Positions 1,109 through 7,810 of a stretch of DNA of 64,000 nucleotides are shown piece by piece. The stretch is from Limisphaerales bacterium (GTDB taxonomy: Bacteria > Verrucomicrobiota > Verrucomicrobiia > Limisphaerales > UBA1100), in NCBI GenBank assembly GCA_014382585.1, contig JACNJL010000060.1, positions 1-64,000 of the forward strand, given 5' to 3'. The notes beneath the pieces were generated by a model that was not told the DNA's origin, searched no databases, and was given only the letters and a program-made list of their open reading frames with translations. The stretch's first letter is position 1. Every line of letters starts with the position of its first letter. Made by a program: the position numbers and the translations under genes.

Positions 1109-1162
1109 ATGTTTGGTCACACAACAATCACTTAGTTATTTTTGCTCATGAACATACCAATT

Positions 1163-1774
1163 ATGAAAACCCTTCTGATTTCCACCTTGTTGATTTCCCT
1201 TAATGCTGGGGCTCAAAATAAACCGGCGCCACCCGCAAAGCCCGCACCGGTGAATCCTGCCATTGCGGCAGCCAAGGCGAAGTTCGAATCCGTCAAAGCC
1301 GCAGCCGCGCAGGGAGATGCCGCCACCTTGCACGAGCTGGGTGATCTTTATTATGCCGGCAAAGGAACAAGCCGAAATTACGCTGAGGCGTACAAGGCGT
1401 ATTTGGCCGCGGCGGAAAAAGGCCATATCATTTCAGAATCCACCGTGGGGTGGATGTGCCGCAACGGGCAGGGCACCGCGCGCGATTATAAAAAGTCGAT
1501 GGAGTGGTACACCAAAGCCGCCGAAAAAGGTCATGTGGAGTCCCAACTTGGTTTGGCCGAGCTGTATTACAATCAAGTAGGCCTCCCCGCGCGCGATTAC
1601 CCTGCTGCCTATAAATGGTATCTCATCGCCGATGGTTTGGGCAGCAAAGTTGCCAAGGCATTCCTGCCACGCATGCAGCAAACGGTACTCAAAGAGCCCA
1701 AGGTAACCGCTGCGGAAAAAGCCAGTGCCGAAAAAGCTGCAGCCGATTGGCTGGTCGCTTATTCCAAAAAATAA
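1163..1774 (+). CDS. exported Sel1-repeat protein
   Basis: About 203 residues. Starting at ATG 1163 gives a clean signal peptide (MKTLLISTLLISLNAGAQ), so I prefer it to the upstream ATG at 1148. A proline/alanine-rich linker follows, then at least three Sel1-like (TPR-related) repeats with the pattern A..YY.G.G...D...A..W...AA..GH, which make a helical solenoid for protein-protein contacts. It is probably periplasmic. The partner is unknown. No lipobox cysteine is present after the signal. Confidence 0.75.
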   Translation: MKTLLISTLLISLNAGAQNKPAPPAKPAPVNPAIAAAKAKFESVKAAAAQGDAATLHELGDLYYAGKGTSRNYAEAYKAYLAAAEKGHIISESTVGWMCRNGQGTARDYKKSMEWYTKAAEKGHVESQLGLAELYYNQVGLPARDYPAAYKWYLIADGLGSKVAKAFLPRMQQTVLKEPKVTAAEKASAEKAAADWLVAYSKK

Positions 1775-1869: not shown

Positions 1870-2137
1870 TCATTTGTGGTAGTTTCAATTTGTCGGCAGA
1901 ATTTTCGGGGAAACTTGGAAAGGAAGCTGGCCGAGTCAGAGGTTCGGAAGGGCTATTTTTACGAGTGGGCCTTCAGCTGGGACAAATCTTTCGGGGTGAA
2001 TTCCGGTGAGACTCAGGCTTGTCGCCTCCACCCGAGGCATCCTTGGCGAGACGGCTTCGGCTCCGGCTGATGTCGATTCAACAGGGCTTGACCGTCTGGG
2101 AAGTGAATTTCGGTTCACCGCTCGGGCGGTCTTTTTT
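1870..2137 (+). ncRNA. candidate structured RNA ending at an intrinsic terminator
   Basis: A stretch with no convincing protein but much potential RNA structure. AGCTG+GCCGAG (1925-1935) can pair with TTCGGC+TC+CGGCT (about 2055-2068), closing a domain of about 140 nt. Inside it are smaller hairpins, for example GCCTC-CACCC-GAGGC near 2024-2038 and GAAGG/CCTTC near 1947-1974. The transcript would end at the strong hairpin 2090-2137. The segment CCGGTGAGACTC (about 2002-2014) recalls cores of cobalamin and FMN riboswitches, but no whole consensus fits. No gene follows for 150 nt. It could be an independent small RNA or an attenuating leader of the secretion operon. Confidence 0.45.
2090..2137 (+). 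terminator. rho-independent terminator
   Basis: The arms GACCGTCTGGG (2090-2100) and CTCGGGCGGTC (2121-2131) pair over 11 positions, some as G-U. They enclose a second stem GTGAA/TTCAC capped by TTTCGG, and six T residues follow at 2132-2137. No protein gene ends just upstream, so it appears to terminate the RNA proposed at 1870-2137. Confidence 0.8.
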
Positions 2138-2290: not shown

Positions 2291-3397
2291 ATGGTCGTTT
2301 TGGCGAACAACTCAAATGCTTCCGATGATTTCGAATCTGCCGCAGTCAAGGCAGTGGATGAATTGGTGGGGCGCGCGGAGCGGGCGGGGGCAAGCGATGT
2401 GCATTTGCAAATGTGTGGCTCGGGCGAATCGGGCGCGCAAGTGTCCTTCCGGCTCGATGGCTTGATGGCGCCGGTGGATGAGTTTTCAGCCGCCGTGGCG
2501 GGGCGCGTGTTTGGCCGCATCAAATATCTGGCGCGATTGAAAACCTATCAAGATTCCCTCCCGCAGGATGGTCGCATTGCGCGCGAAGAAATCAATGCCG
2601 CCCATGATGTTCGCGTGGCGACGTATCCCACCGTCACGGGCGAGAAAATTGTGCTGCGCTTTTTCCCGGAAGCCGCGCAGTCGCTTGATGAATTGGGTTA
2701 TCAATCCGAGCTCCGCGCGGTGTTGGAAACTTTTTTGAAATCGCAATCCGGTTTGCTGCTCCTCACCGGCCCGGCAGGCAGCGGCAAGACCACCACCATT
2801 TATTCCTGCCTGCGTCACTTGGCCCAAAGTGGCGGCCGCCACATCATCACCGTGGAGGATCCCGTGGAGCAGGTGCTGCCGGGCATTATGCAAACCGAAG
2901 TGAACGAGGCGCGCGGCTTGACCTTCGCCACCGCTGCACGGCACTTGATGCGGCAGGATCCGCAAGTGCTGGCGATTGGCGAAATTCGCGATGAAGAAAC
3001 CGCCCGCATCGCCGTGCGCGCGGCGCTCACCGGTCATCTTGTGATTTCCACGCTGCACGCAGGCTCGTGCTCCGGTGTGCTCGAGCGGTTGCTGGCGATG
3101 TGCCCGGATCGCTACGCCGTCGCAGCCGCATTGGCGTTGGTGTTTAATCAGCGGCTTGTCCGCCGTTTGTGCGCCGCGTGCGCGGGCGAAGGTTGCGGGG
3201 ATTGTTTGGAGACGGGTTATAAAAACCGCTTGCCCGTTTCCGAGTGGGCGCGGATGGATGACGCATTGCGGGCGCAGGTGCGCGAGCACGGGGCATCCGT
3301 TTTTCAACCGGCCGAGCCATTAGCCGAAGCAGGAAAAGTTTTACTCAAAGAAAACCTCACCAACGCCGCAGAACTCGAGCGTGTTTTGGGTTCATAA
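2291..3397 (+). CDS. GspE/PilT-family secretion ATPase
   Basis: A 368-residue cytoplasmic ATPase of the type II secretion/type IV pilus family that would power pseudopilus assembly or retraction. Seen in order: a short N-terminal domain (to about 120), Walker A GPAGSGKTTT at 160-169, Asp box around 184-202, Walker B VLAIGEIRD at 226-234, His box TGHLVISTLHA at 248-258, and four cysteines (294, 297, 302, 305; CxxC-x4-CxxC) matching the GspE/PilB zinc-binding site but more compact. It lacks the long N-terminal N1E domain of full GspE. It leads the operon; the next gene starts 13 nt after its stop. Confidence 0.9.
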   Translation: MVVLANNSNASDDFESAAVKAVDELVGRAERAGASDVHLQMCGSGESGAQVSFRLDGLMAPVDEFSAAVAGRVFGRIKYLARLKTYQDSLPQDGRIAREEINAAHDVRVATYPTVTGEKIVLRFFPEAAQSLDELGYQSELRAVLETFLKSQSGLLLLTGPAGSGKTTTIYSCLRHLAQSGGRHIITVEDPVEQVLPGIMQTEVNEARGLTFATAARHLMRQDPQVLAIGEIRDEETARIAVRAALTGHLVISTLHAGSCSGVLERLLAMCPDRYAVAAALALVFNQRLVRRLCAACAGEGCGDCLETGYKNRLPVSEWARMDDALRAQVREHGASVFQPAEPLAEAGKVLLKENLTNAAELERVLGS

Positions 3398-3410
3398 AAC
3401 CCTTTGTAAA

Positions 3411-4400
3411 ATGCCAATCCAATCTGACGAACTCGCCTTTGCCAACGAACAACTGGCTGGGATGCTGAAGAGCGGTCTGCCGCTGGAGGGCAGCTTGCGC
3501 GAGCTGGCCGGTTCGATGGAGCGTGGCCCCTTGCGCGCGGAGTTGGTGGCGCTGGAAAAAGACCTCGCCGCCGGCACACCGCTGGCCGACGCGCTGGAAC
3601 GCCGCGACCTGCCGCGCCTTTACAAAAAAATGCTGCACGTCGGCGCCGAGGCCAACAACCTCCCCTCCGTGCTGCAGTGGCTGGCCGATCACTACGCGCG
3701 CGCTCACACCACTTGGCTGCGGCTGAAGGGACTGATGGTGTATCCGATGCTGGTATTGCTCACCGCCACGGCGTTGTCGTTCGGCGTGGCTTGGAGTATG
3801 GCGGAAGTGTTGACGGTCGTGCCGCTGGGGGATTTTTATGGGAGAGGCGAAGAACCAGTGATGTACCGCTTTTATCAATGGGCACCGCCGGTGGCTTTGA
3901 TGTCCTTGACTCTCATCGCAGTAGGATTGCTGGCATCGCCTGGGATGCGGCGGAATATGGTTTGGCGACTGCCGGCTTTTCGCGAAGCGAGCCTGGCGCG
4001 CGTGGCGGGTGCGATGGCGATGTTGCTGCGCAGCGGCTGTACGCTGGGCGAATCGCTGGCGTTGGTACGCGAATTGGAAGCAGACAACGCAGCGGGCGCG
4101 GAATTGGCCGAATGGAGCGAACGCCTCGAGCGCGGCGAAGGCAAGCCTGAGGAATTTGCTCAGCCCGGTAAGGTGTTTCCGCCACTCTTCACGTGGGTGC
4201 TGCGCAGCGGCGGTGAGGACTTGGCCGCCGGCTTCGAGCGTGCGGCGGATTTGTATCACGCCCGCCAGACGCATCGTACGGATGCCTTTTTGTTTGCCGC
4301 GCTCCCAATGGCTGTTCTCGCGTTGGGACTTTTAATTATGGTGCAGGTAATTCCAGTGATGATGGCCGTCACGGGAATGATGGATCGGCTTAGCGCTTAA
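3411..4400 (+). CDS. type II secretion system F-family membrane protein
   Basis: About 329 residues. Two T2SSF-type helical bundles (residues about 5-100 and 200-300) with repeated L...G..L..AL-type motifs surround membrane segments near 110-130, 155-175 and the C-terminus. This is the layout of GspF/PilC inner-membrane platform proteins that contact the GspE ATPase. I chose ATG 3411 because the upstream part of the frame overlaps the end of the ATPase gene and does not look like GspF. It is followed 11 nt later by a second, longer F-like protein. Confidence 0.85.
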   Translation: MPIQSDELAFANEQLAGMLKSGLPLEGSLRELAGSMERGPLRAELVALEKDLAAGTPLADALERRDLPRLYKKMLHVGAEANNLPSVLQWLADHYARAHTTWLRLKGLMVYPMLVLLTATALSFGVAWSMAEVLTVVPLGDFYGRGEEPVMYRFYQWAPPVALMSLTLIAVGLLASPGMRRNMVWRLPAFREASLARVAGAMAMLLRSGCTLGESLALVRELEADNAAGAELAEWSERLERGEGKPEEFAQPGKVFPPLFTWVLRSGGEDLAAGFERAADLYHARQTHRTDAFLFAALPMAVLALGLLIMVQVIPVMMAVTGMMDRLSA

Positions 4401-4411
4401 AATTTTCGATT

Positions 4412-5956
4412 ATGACGGATAACGATTTTATTCAGATCATCGTGATCGTCGGATTGGTGCTCTTGATGTTCCCAATGCTGCGGTTGGGTGGATTTGTGCT
4501 GGGATTGCCGTTGCGGCGGCGGGAAAATTCGAGGTTGTTTCTCAACCTGCTCGAGATGGGCCTGCGCGAAGGGCGGCGTGCGGAGGAAATCTTTCTGTCC
4601 TGCGCGCGCGCGGGCGATCGCTCGGTGGAATTCCTGACCACCCCGCGCACGCCGTTTGTGCTGGGGATGGTGCATATTTTGATGGGCGCGGTGAGCTTGA
4701 TCATCACATTGATCTGTATGGTCACGTACCCGTCCAATCAACCTGTTGATGATTACGGGTTTATGCCTTTGTTCGGCTTGGTGATCATTTGGGATGGATT
4801 CATTATTTGGGCAGGCGTGCAATTGATTCGCTTTCGGGCGTGGGGGCGTAGGCTGGCCATCTGGTTGGCGTTGGTAAATATTTTACTGGCCAGTGCCAGC
4901 TCCGCCTCGCTGTTTTTTGGCGGGCAGTTTGCTGGAGGGTGTTTGGCCTTTGCCGGTTTTATAATTCCGGCCATGTTTATTTTTTTGCTTACCAAACCTG
5001 AAGTGGTGGCGGTGTGCGGGCGCAAGGGAAAACAGGAGCCGTTGCTGGTGACGCGCCTGCGCGAAATGGAATTAGTGGTGGCCTTGCGCCAAGCGCCCGG
5101 GCTGATTGAGCCGCGGATCGTTTCGCTGCTGGCGGTGGGGCGCGAGCTGGGCGACCTGCAAAAAGTGCTGCCCGCTTGCCGCGCGGTGTTGGGTGAAGCC
5201 ACAGGAAAAGCCCGCACAGCGCAGAATCATTTCGTGCTGTTGTTGCTGGTCGTGATGCCGATGAGTTTGATCATATTGCCGATCTTGGGCGTTTTTATTT
5301 TCCCAAAATTCCAAGCCATCATTTCCGAGATGAGCGCGCCCGAAACGTCGGCGGTGCTCTTTGATTGGTTGATGGTCAACCTTGGGTGGGTGGTCGGCAT
5401 TCACGCGCTGGTGTTGTTGGCTATTTGGGTTTTCGCGCTGGCGTTTTTGGCCGGACCGCGGTTGGAACAGTATGTTGCCCGCGTCGTGCCGGGGCTGAGC
5501 GCGCGGATGGCGCTCGCCTTACCGTGGCGCCGCAAGCGGGTGCAGCGCGATTTTTCTGTGTCGCTGGCGCTGTTGCTCGATGCCGGCTTGCCGGAAGCGC
5601 GCGCGTTGGAGTTGGCTGCCGAAAGCACGGGCAATCGGATTTATCAAAACCGCGCGGTGCAAGTGAGCGCGGATTTGGCAAACGGAATGCCCTTGCCCGA
5701 AGCCGTGGGTCGCATTGATGGCTCGGGTGAATTTCAATGGCGCCTCACCACTGCGGCGCGCGCGGGACAGGGGTTTCTGCCGGCCCTGCGCGCGTGGCAC
5801 GAGATGCTCGATGCCCGCGCGTCACAGCAGGAACAATCCGCCGCGCAAATGGCGACCACCGGCTTGGTGTTTTATAATGGCGCCGTCGTGGGCCTCGTGA
5901 TGTTGAGTGTGTTCCAATTTCTCATCAGCGCAATGGAGGCCGTCTCATTGTGGTAA
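4412..5956 (+). CDS. second GspF-like membrane protein with extended N-terminus
   Basis: A 514-residue polytopic protein. Membrane helices occur near residues 7-25, 85-105, 115-135, 145-165 and 170-190, then more around 275-300, 320-345 and the C-terminus (about 485-505). The C-terminal third (from about LPWRRKRVQRDFSVSLALLL) carries a clear GspF half-domain, including DAGLPEARALELAAEST and AARAGQGFLPALRAW. The N-terminal half is less typical. Two adjacent F-type proteins suggest a heteromeric platform rather than the usual GspF homomer. Its stop overlaps the next start by 7 nt. Confidence 0.8.
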   Translation: MTDNDFIQIIVIVGLVLLMFPMLRLGGFVLGLPLRRRENSRLFLNLLEMGLREGRRAEEIFLSCARAGDRSVEFLTTPRTPFVLGMVHILMGAVSLIITLICMVTYPSNQPVDDYGFMPLFGLVIIWDGFIIWAGVQLIRFRAWGRRLAIWLALVNILLASASSASLFFGGQFAGGCLAFAGFIIPAMFIFLLTKPEVVAVCGRKGKQEPLLVTRLREMELVVALRQAPGLIEPRIVSLLAVGRELGDLQKVLPACRAVLGEATGKARTAQNHFVLLLLVVMPMSLIILPILGVFIFPKFQAIISEMSAPETSAVLFDWLMVNLGWVVGIHALVLLAIWVFALAFLAGPRLEQYVARVVPGLSARMALALPWRRKRVQRDFSVSLALLLDAGLPEARALELAAESTGNRIYQNRAVQVSADLANGMPLPEAVGRIDGSGEFQWRLTTAARAGQGFLPALRAWHEMLDARASQQEQSAAQMATTGLVFYNGAVVGLVMLSVFQFLISAMEAVSLW

Positions 5957-6339
5957 CGCCCCATCCATCAACAATTAAGAAACGCCAGCGCGGCTCGTTG
6001 ACGGCGGAGGTGATGGCGGCCTTGGCTATCCTCACGGCGGTGATGATCCCGCTGGTGGCCTCGTCTTTGCACGATCAACAACACACCCGCGAACTGTACC
6101 TGCGCGCGGTGGCGATGGAAATTGTGGACGGCGAAATGGAAGTGCTCGCTGCCGGTGCGGGTAAGAACTTCGCGCCGGGGCAACACCCGTATTCCGTCAG
6201 CGCCCAAGCCGCCGCCAATTTGCCGGCCGGAAAATTTATTTTAACCCGCACTCAAGAAACCATTCGCCTCGAGTGGCAGCCGGACGATCCGGCCACACAT
6301 CGGCACATCAGCGTGGCCCGGGAGGTGCGCCTGCAATGA
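5950..6339 (+). CDS. type IV prepilin-like (pseudopilin) protein
   Basis: A 129-residue protein starting at GTG 5950, overlapping the previous stop. It has a class III prepilin signal: a basic leader ending RQRG, then SLTAEVMAALAILTAVMIPL with glutamate at position +5 and a hydrophobic helix. This is what a PilD-type peptidase would cleave, so it is a minor pseudopilin (GspI/PilV-like in position). The globular part is small and not assignable. The ATGA overlap with the next gene indicates coupled translation. Confidence 0.8.
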   Translation: MVTPHPSTIKKRQRGSLTAEVMAALAILTAVMIPLVASSLHDQQHTRELYLRAVAMEIVDGEMEVLAAGAGKNFAPGQHPYSVSAQAAANLPAGKFILTRTQETIRLEWQPDDPATHRHISVAREVRLQ

Positions 6340-6851
6340 ACACGTCGAACATCATACCCCCAGCACATCGGCGCGGCGTTCTCATTGTGGAATTGTCGAT
6401 GTACTTGGCGCTGTTGCTGATGTTCAGCACATTGGCCTTTCAAATTTTTCACCGCGCCAGACAACAGTCCGCGGATATTCAGCGGCAATCGCGCGAAATC
6501 TCGCTTGCCCTGCGCGCGGGCGAACGCTGGCGGGCGGATGTGCGCCAAGCCACCGTTGCGCCCGAGTGGATCCCCAGTGCGTGGCGCAAGGCAATCGTTT
6601 TGCGCCTGACCACGCCGACGGGCCACATCGATTATTTTTTTGAAGGCAGTCGTGTCTGGCGCAAGGTCGGCGAGGCGCCCAAGGAAAAGATTTTGTTCAA
6701 TGTGAAATCCTCCAAAATGATCGATGACTCCCGTGACAGCGTGCCCGCAGTGCGCTGGGAATTGGAAATCAAAACTCAAGGCGGCCGCCGGGCACAAACG
6801 CAACCACTATTCACTTTTTTAGCCGTGCCAAACTCGCAATCGTTGCAATGA
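6336..6851 (+). CDS. minor pseudopilin (GspJ/PilW-like)
   Basis: A 171-residue protein with leader HRRG followed by VLIVELSMYLALLLMF: the cleavage glycine, glutamate at +5 and the hydrophobic helix of type IV prepilins. The remainder (about 130 residues) resembles the size and position of GspJ/PilW minor pilins, but the specific family is inferred from gene order only. It starts at ATG 6336 in an ATGA overlap with the upstream pseudopilin and overlaps the next gene by 4 nt. Confidence 0.75.
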   Translation: MNTSNIIPPAHRRGVLIVELSMYLALLLMFSTLAFQIFHRARQQSADIQRQSREISLALRAGERWRADVRQATVAPEWIPSAWRKAIVLRLTTPTGHIDYFFEGSRVWRKVGEAPKEKILFNVKSSKMIDDSRDSVPAVRWELEIKTQGGRRAQTQPLFTFLAVPNSQSLQ

Positions 6852-7039
6852 AACTCCGCAGCACAAACCGCCGTTCCCGAGCTCGCCAACGCGGCGGCGC
6901 GATGATCATCGTGATGTTGATGCTTGCCTTGCTCGCCCTATTCGCCTCGGCCAACAAACAAACAAACTATGGCCTGAACGACGAACTCAACCGCCTTGAG
7001 GCCGAGCAGATCGAACGGCTCAAGGCTAGCGGGGAATGA
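6848..7039 (+). CDS. very short pseudopilin-like membrane protein
   Basis: Only 63 residues: a strongly basic start, RQRGGAMIIVMLMLALLALFASAN as the single hydrophobic helix, then about 25 polar residues. The G-GAMIIV context resembles the N-terminus of GspK/PilX, where +5 is often not glutamate, but the large GspK globular domain is absent. It may be a truncated GspK or a genuine mini-subunit. Its ATG overlaps the previous stop, so it belongs to the operon, and it is the last gene in it. Confidence 0.6.
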   Translation: MKLRSTNRRSRARQRGGAMIIVMLMLALLALFASANKQTNYGLNDELNRLEAEQIERLKASGE

Positions 7040-7120
7040 CCCAGACCCCAGACCCAATGAGGATTCTTTGGGCCTTCATCCGCCTTTGACTTTCACCTTT
7101 TGCCTGATTACTTTCCTCCC

Positions 7121-7810
7121 GTGAATTCCCACGACGCCATTCTTAAGGCGAAGCTGAGGTTGATTGATGAGACGCACCGGTTTGTGCCGAAGCGGTCGGC
7201 GTTGTTGATCATCGATATGCAGCACGGGTTTGTGGATGAAGGGGCTTCGCTGGAGGTGGCAGCGGCACGTGATCTCATTCCCAACATGAAAAGCCTCATC
7301 GCTGCCTTTCGCGCGGCGAAGGCGCCGGTGGTGTTCACCGAATTTGTGTATGCAGACAACGTGCCGTGTCTTCGAGGTGATCCTTTCGGCATTGAACATC
7401 TGAAGGCCGAAGGCGCACCGGGATTTGGCAGCAAGTCCAGCAACTGTCTGGTCGGGCATAATGCCGGCACCGGCGTGGAATCGGCCGACACCATTCCGGC
7501 GCTACAACCGCGACCGGAGGAGTTGATCATCCGGGGGCATACTTACGATAAATTCTACGGCACCCCGTTGGACCTCGCCTTGCGCAGTCAGGATATTTCG
7601 CATCTCTTTCTCACCGGCATCACTACTGATGTGTGCGTGAACGCCACGCTCATCGCTGCCACCCAGCGCAACTACCGCGTCACCGCCATCACCGACGCCT
7701 GCGCCTCTCCTTGGCCGGAGCTGCATGAGGCGTGCTTTAAAATTTGGCAACCCAAGTTCGCCCGCCTGAAACCCACGGCGACTGTGCTCGACGAAATTTC
7801 TGTTCAATAA
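7121..7810 (+). CDS. isochorismatase-family cysteine hydrolase
   Basis: About 229 residues if started at GTG 7121; a TTG at 7100 is also in frame. The family's Asp-Lys-Cys triad is visible: D32 in LLIIDMQHGF, K144 in HTYDKFYGT and C172 in TGITTDVCVNAT, giving a Rossmann-like hydrolase that cleaves amides, such as ureidoacrylate, carbamoylsarcosine or nicotinamide types, or the isochorismate ether. It sits 10 nt before a secreted esterase and upstream of an FAH-family enzyme, which hints at a small catabolic operon. The substrate cannot be read from sequence. Confidence 0.85.
   Translation: MNSHDAILKAKLRLIDETHRFVPKRSALLIIDMQHGFVDEGASLEVAAARDLIPNMKSLIAAFRAAKAPVVFTEFVYADNVPCLRGDPFGIEHLKAEGAPGFGSKSSNCLVGHNAGTGVESADTIPALQPRPEELIIRGHTYDKFYGTPLDLALRSQDISHLFLTGITTDVCVNATLIAATQRNYRVTAITDACASPWPELHEACFKIWQPKFARLKPTATVLDEISVQ

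Follow-up and report, generated by a model that had tools for sequence, protein, structure and literature searches.

A predicted noncoding RNA gene family of marine Verrucomicrobia with a promoter element that also lies upstream of dnaA

Introduction

What occupies the 516 nt between the stop of a Sel1-repeat open reading frame (ORF) at position 1774 and a gspE-type ORF that begins at position 2291, in a contig of a Limisphaerales bacterium? The window considered here is the whole stretch of 64,000 nt from that contig (JACNJL010000060.1), and coordinates refer to it unless a contig handle is given. The original prediction placed a structured RNA with its own terminator at 1870–2137, and read it either as a new small RNA or as a regulator of the secretion operon downstream. 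Judged from comparative sequence analysis, positions 1892–2137 are an uncatalogued gene for a noncoding RNA that is transcribed independently, from its own promoter, folds into several hairpins and ends in an intrinsic terminator. Its promoter element recurs upstream of dnaA.

Coding status and ends of the RNA

No reading frame is conserved in the gap (1775–2290). The stops are placed differently across ten homologues and the frames are broken at differing places, which rules out a hidden protein, in accordance with the earlier view that the gap of about 500 nt holds none that is credible. The stretch 1880–2140 folds with −103.9 kcal/mol, compared with −90.4 (s.d. 5.1) for its shuffled versions (z −2.64; 3 of 200 shuffles equal it), as expected of the structured RNA proposed. 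At the 3′ end, a terminator-like site finishes with T6 at 2137, so that the anticipated two-part intrinsic terminator stands. The 5′ end is placed near 1892 instead of at 1870. These predicted ends, 1892 and 2137, define a structured plus-strand RNA of about 246 nt, here termed type A, which runs from the predicted start to the end of the T run; it is supported by covariation and by a full-length covariance model match at 1892–2137, the window locus itself belonging to that model's own alignment. The traits of a small RNA gene are found together at the locus, i.e., a GC-rich stem and T run at the 3′ end, a promoter directly upstream that is conserved by comparison, and no conserved frame.

A conserved multi-hairpin fold

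The fold consists of six helices and a terminator, all on the plus strand. The P1 hairpin (1892–1931) pairs 1892–1897 with 1926–1931, with 95.0% of cells paired in ten sequences. The P2 stem (1932–2021) pairs 1932–1937 with 2016–2021 and closes a multiloop that holds the P3 hairpin (1949–1973) and the P4 hairpin (1976–2007); five of the nine P2 pairs change on both sides in the ten-sequence alignment, as do three of the six outer pairs in each of P3 and P4. The P5 hairpin, GCCTC-CACCC-GAGGC, followed by ATCCT (2024–2043), presents a C-rich loop that we propose as a contact site, and the hairpin with its next base (16 columns) is invariant in all ten type A sequences. The P6 hairpin (2041–2086), in which 2041–2045 pair with 2082–2086, appears in single-sequence folds of most homologues; it is misaligned in the alignment and was left out of the covariation count. 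The intrinsic terminator (2090–2137) comprises an outer stem of 2090–2100 with 2121–2131, an inner stem, and T6 at 2132–2137, with 98.8% of cells paired and three inner pairs covarying in the ten sequences.

The alignment (A1) comprises ten type A homologues from two genera, and 58 pairs were counted. Over these pairs 93.5% of cells pair, compared with 85.6% in shuffles (0 of 500 as high), and 20 of the 58 pairs change on both sides, compared with 13.1 in shuffles (0 of 500 as many), the shuffle control being one that ignores relatedness. Sliding the partners by one to three columns, a control that allows for kinship but favours a structure derived from the same sequences, lowers pairing to 31.5–54.9%. 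The number of further pair types, another measure of covariation, is not extreme, being equalled by 40 of 500 shuffles. Covarying pairs, which had been named as a check on the prediction, are thus present. The particular long-range stem first proposed, 1925–1935 with 2055–2068, is not conserved: as a whole it scores like shuffles, and for the outer six of its ten pairs just two of ten homologues have a letter at both positions. The conserved fold instead forms P1 and P2 (1892–1897/1926–1931 and 1932–1937/2016–2021).

Known RNA families

At gathering thresholds Rfam gives no match anywhere in the 64-kb window, and with E values up to 10 over 1775–2290, the interval named for this check, only two weak matches appear, both on the opposite strand. 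At the locus itself there is no Rfam match for RNase P RNA, SRP RNA or 6S RNA, and no tmRNA by Rfam or ARAGORN, so that the earlier exclusion by eye of RNase P, tmRNA and SRP RNA is upheld. The likeness of CCGGTGAGACTC to cobalamin and FMN riboswitch cores gains no such backing, as neither covariance model matches the locus even at E up to 10. A diverged member of one of these families (RNase P, SRP, 6S, tmRNA, cobalamin or FMN riboswitch) would account for the CCGGTGAGACTC resemblance, and tmRNA was not found elsewhere in the host genome; the Rfam searches lead us to reject such a member as extremely improbable, and the RNA is without a tRNA-like 3′ end. Furthermore, RNase P and SRP RNA of the host genome sit elsewhere, above cut-off, and a 6S-like match also lies elsewhere, below it. 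Rfam 15 holds no family corresponding to the type A RNA or to its diverged relatives, type B, described below, and no paper describing the RNA family or RNA genes of this lineage was found in the literature, as far as titles and the openings of abstracts tell.

The 6S-like RNA (L018, 1501–1668; G000:C41:42017–42184, minus strand) scores 43.1 bits, just below the Rfam cut-off of 46.4. For tmRNA, a search of the whole host genome with RF00023 gave nothing over cut-off and nine weak matches, short and mostly of tRNA length; tmRNA may have diverged, or the host assembly, which is 95% complete, may lack it.

Neighbouring genes

The Sel1-repeat protein gene (1142–1774, plus strand; Pfam Sel1) lies outside the RNA and is its constant upstream neighbour, being found there in 10 of 10 type A loci. 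The downstream side differs from locus to locus. Eight loci have enough sequence for comparison, the contigs of G006 and G014 ending too early. The gspE-type gene (from 2291 in the window; Pfam T2SSE) comes next after the RNA in two of the eight (G000 and G004), an isochorismatase-type gene in another two (G003 and G002), and in the remaining four (G019, G015, G010 and G012) the longest ORF that follows is encoded on the opposite strand. Because the downstream gene varies and the secretion operon is no constant partner, the RNA is not its leader. The spacing is as first described, the RNA ending 154 nt upstream of the operon on the same strand, and this is what a leader or riboswitch controlling the operon from 2291 has in its favour. 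We give that reading next to no probability and reject it, given the inconstant downstream gene (gspE in 2 of 8 loci), the strong terminator, and paralogues that adjoin unrelated genes; the regulatory role once proposed for the RNA in secretion is left unsupported. Overall, the original prediction is confirmed in part as an observation and supported in part as an interpretation.

In the window, a secretion-type block (2291–7040) lies between the RNA and an isochorismatase-type gene (7100–7810). In G003 and G002, a relative of the latter follows the RNA directly, without the intervening block.

Family members and their distribution

Of 58 related genomes searched at the nucleotide level, 12 had matches. 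As the search of relatives was expected to find for a genuine RNA, type A homologues are present in ten genomes of two genera, five of the host genus (host included) and five of the sister genus; the matches in the other two (G026 and G027) are short and may have arisen by chance. A covariance model built from the ten type A sequences (R1) found further, diverged copies, termed type B, and a second model (R2) was built from 14 type B copies, some of them taken from a pattern scan of named genomes. The host genome has four copies by R2, namely C60 (the window copy, located by R1 at 1892–2137), C15:1298–1542, C64:89755–90035 and C22:21484–21782. Hairpins between the two types, GCCTCCACCAAAGGC and GTCTCCACCAAAGGC, in the G009 copy (L087) and in L039 tie type A to type B. 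Together with the missing Rfam match, the covarying fold and the gene's own promoter and terminator, these homologues and paralogues support the proposal of a new small RNA.

Among 20 genomes of the family, R1 (E 0.001) and R2 (E 0.0001) each match 15, and the two combined match 16. Those without a match are G007, G008 and G011 (90–95% complete, from two other genera) and G016 (61% complete). A type A match is absent from two genus members, G001 and G005, each 92% complete, which suggests that type A can be lost. Order-wide and phylum-wide, with stricter filters, R2 matches 18 of 320 genomes of the order, 15 in the family and three weakly (G259, G210 and G171), and one of 387 genomes of the phylum, the host itself; under the same filters R1 matches 13 of 245 genomes of the order, 11 in the family, with G027 and G155 as weak matches outside. 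The three weak R2 matches were treated as chance, the family motifs being absent by eye. When 84,980 named species were scanned for the pattern, 16 stretches were returned, 15 with Verrucomicrobial titles and one from a metagenome-assembled genome titled Alphaproteobacteria. The RNA gene family thus appears, as far as searched, to be confined to one family of marine Verrucomicrobia.

The contig with the Alphaproteobacteria title (L067; CALIBP010000155.1) carries a type B copy, and its title is probably a binning error since the flank downstream of the RNA is the same as in the Verrucomicrobiales contig L062. In another family of the order, L054 (1501–1664; G027:C23) has a 20-nt block identical to the P5 region, the rest of the RNA being absent.

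A tRNA scan covered 21 of the 22 type B copies that score above 76 bits. Four of them (L058, L063, L073 and L080) lie 88–122 nt downstream of a same-strand tRNA, which is tRNA-Ser-GGA twice, Val-CAC and Lys-TTT. In L064 and L065, the type B copy is preceded by tRNA-Ser-GGA at a distance of about 1.5 and 3 kb, as if an insertion had intervened. Phages and plasmids searched with one type B copy gave no match, and viral contigs contained neither the type A or type B pattern nor a relative of the Sel1 protein query; a phage, plasmid or viral origin was rejected on these null searches.

Type B does not retain the C-rich P5 loop in that form. There, the loop sequence ACCAA is complementary to TTGGT ahead of the terminator in 14 of 14 sequences (100% of cells paired); four of the five pairs never vary, the fifth changes on both sides in a single sequence, and shuffles do equally well in 107 of 500 cases. 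It is plausible from this pattern that the type B loop is held in a short pseudoknot.

The promoter element of the RNA genes

Upstream of the RNA, on the same strand, lie two tandem GTGAA-type boxes (1821–1840), TGTGAATAA at 1821–1829 and TGTGAAGAG at 1832–1840, which are 11 bp apart and resemble DnaA boxes. A proximal box (1846–1852; AATAAGT here and AAYAACT in most copies) follows, 46 nt before the RNA start. We assign a putative −35 element to 1857–1863 (CTTCGC, and CTTGGC-like in many type B copies), within a conserved CTTnG block, and a putative extended −10 element, TGnTAnnTT, to 1877–1885, another conserved block of the promoter consensus. The −10 hexamer of the window at 1880–1885 therefore fits a start at about 1892. 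The promoter pattern occurs once in the window, at 1825–1852, with none expected.

The same architecture holds across 31 promoters, 10 of type A and 21 of type B (two of the 23 type B promoters, L041 and L085, were dropped because their start motif was unmatched); the 31 are not independent, many copies being related and some met in two collections, and they comprise 27 distinct sequences. In all 31, the proximal AAYAACT-like box precedes the RNA start by 46–47 nt. The distance from this box up to the best-matching copy of the distal motif GAAYAACCNGTGAA is 21 bp in 13 promoters, 32 bp in 15 and 43 bp in 3, so that successive spacings differ by 11 bp, or roughly one turn of the helix.

The element recurs upstream of dnaA

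The tandem boxes at 1821–1840, supported by pattern and profile scans and by the distance census of the 31 promoters, are the same element as that upstream of dnaA. A scan of the whole host genome with the 21-bp form, allowing up to three mismatches, gave five sites, compared with none in a control with the pattern reversed. Four of the five belong to the RNA genes, and the fifth is on the minus strand at C20:68337–68364. This fifth site lies 257 nt before a match to the DnaA model TIGR00362 (C20:66764–68080; 558 bits), and no protein gene other than dnaA had the element in that scan. In the family, dnaA was located in 15 of 20 genomes, and a 32-nt profile, trained on RNA promoters only, was scored on both strands at all positions of these loci. 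The dnaA-upstream site comes out on top in all 15, with 10.5–19.6 bits compared with at most 2.4 elsewhere; among the 15 are the three genomes from genera that lack the RNA. The RNA promoters, on which the profile was trained, score higher (29.7–47.3 bits), and in the 64-kb window no unrelated position exceeds 7.3 bits. Upstream of dnaA the element reads TGTGAANAA-N3-GTGAACAA, apart from minor variation, and the −35-like motif lies at another distance from it than in the RNA promoters. Occurrence of the element at both the RNA genes and dnaA suggests that the RNAs may be tied to a replication or growth programme.

The region of about 220–290 nt between the element and dnaA (L102–L116) contains stretches that are alike across most of the 15 loci, e.g., CCGCGTCCCAGC, and hairpin-rich sequence; it is perhaps a structured dnaA leader or part of an origin. 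As a pairing target, the dnaA leader was the sole candidate tried, and it gave no signal: scores with type A or with one type B copy fall within the range of 10 shuffles each.

Identity of the regulator

The DnaA box has the consensus TTWTNCACA, or TGTGNAWAA on the other strand, and autoregulation of dnaA through such boxes is the common case. The window has a box close to TTWTNCACA in TGTGAATAA (1821–1829); both TGTGAATAA and TGTGAACAA resemble a DnaA box read on the other strand, and we take the GTGAA-type boxes to be DnaA boxes on the strength of this consensus. Other copies and the dnaA sites often depart from TGTGNAWAA at one or more positions. Such deviations are also what would be seen if the same RNA family were controlled by another protein, e.g., a winged-helix response regulator, with dnaA co-regulated without DnaA. 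Winged-helix response regulators can recognize direct repeats 11 bp apart, and GTGAA-type repeats in 11-bp steps fit them as well. A response regulator on these repeats is the main rival to DnaA, albeit clearly the less probable candidate, as dnaA is the sole protein gene with the element genome-wide and its autoregulation by DnaA boxes is so common.

The functional part could alternatively be the DNA, with repeats that titrate or load DnaA in the manner of datA or an origin and a transcript that is incidental. DnaA-box-like repeats at 31 promoters, in several copies per genome and with the same element by dnaA, would suit such a role; a covarying RNA fold with a terminator, and a proximal box that keeps 46–47 nt to the RNA start in every promoter, argue against it and make it very unlikely.

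Proposed mode of action

We favour, with a probability of roughly 55%, a family of trans-acting structured RNAs that share their regulator with dnaA, this regulator being plausibly DnaA. Whichever protein controls dnaA, with DnaA as the simplest candidate, would bind the tandem boxes spaced in 11-bp steps, and the RNAs would be made in step with replication initiation or growth. Each RNA would then act in trans; the most likely means is base pairing by the exposed C-rich loop of the invariant hairpin GCCUC-CACCC-GAGGC, while the folded body and terminator would protect the pairing hairpin. P5 is the most likely contact site because this hairpin is invariant in all ten type A sequences.

The RNA may instead work as 6S and CsrB RNAs do, binding and sequestering a protein and not pairing with mRNA, but this function is distinctly less likely. 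A highly structured, multi-copy RNA with an invariant hairpin could serve it, and the C-rich loop varies across the family; yet the host genome has a separate 6S-like candidate, and a repeated protein-binding motif such as GGA loops was not seen by eye.

A broader and more tentative proposal, to which we give somewhat less than even odds, is that these structured RNAs are lineage-specific, multi-copy members of the DnaA regulon, which the initiator would switch on or off through helically phased box arrays, varying from copy to copy by full 11-bp units, and so couple replication initiation to RNA-based control of other genes. Should the element prove to be a DnaA site, the family would exemplify noncoding RNAs under the control of the replication initiator, and the 21-, 32- and 43-bp arrays would form a natural series for studying helical phasing in promoter control. 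The family as defined, with models, copies, a promoter and predicted ends, can be checked in marine metatranscriptomes.

Comparison with known systems

Among 6S and CsrB-type protein-binding RNAs, the RNA has its likeness in being a structured gene of comparable length; it differs in that it is not one long bulged hairpin and repeated GGA loops are not evident by eye. Its promoters are like DnaA-box promoters, and like the autoregulated dnaA, in having tandem boxes close to TGTGNAWAA, with the same kind of element upstream of dnaA in all 15 dnaA loci found. Unlike known DnaA-box promoters, these boxes, which are candidate sites only, are attached to noncoding RNA genes and are arranged in 11-bp steps and in variable number. 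Trans-acting small RNA genes are intergenic, have their own promoter and a Rho-independent terminator, and are often paralogous. The RNA is like them in its own promoter and terminator, in having no conserved frame, in its constant adjoining gene, and in its several copies with one type of promoter, but it differs in the lack of an Rfam match, its large multi-stem body and a promoter element in common with dnaA. These sequence comparisons place it in a new family of RNAs whose kind is known but whose promoter link is unusual.
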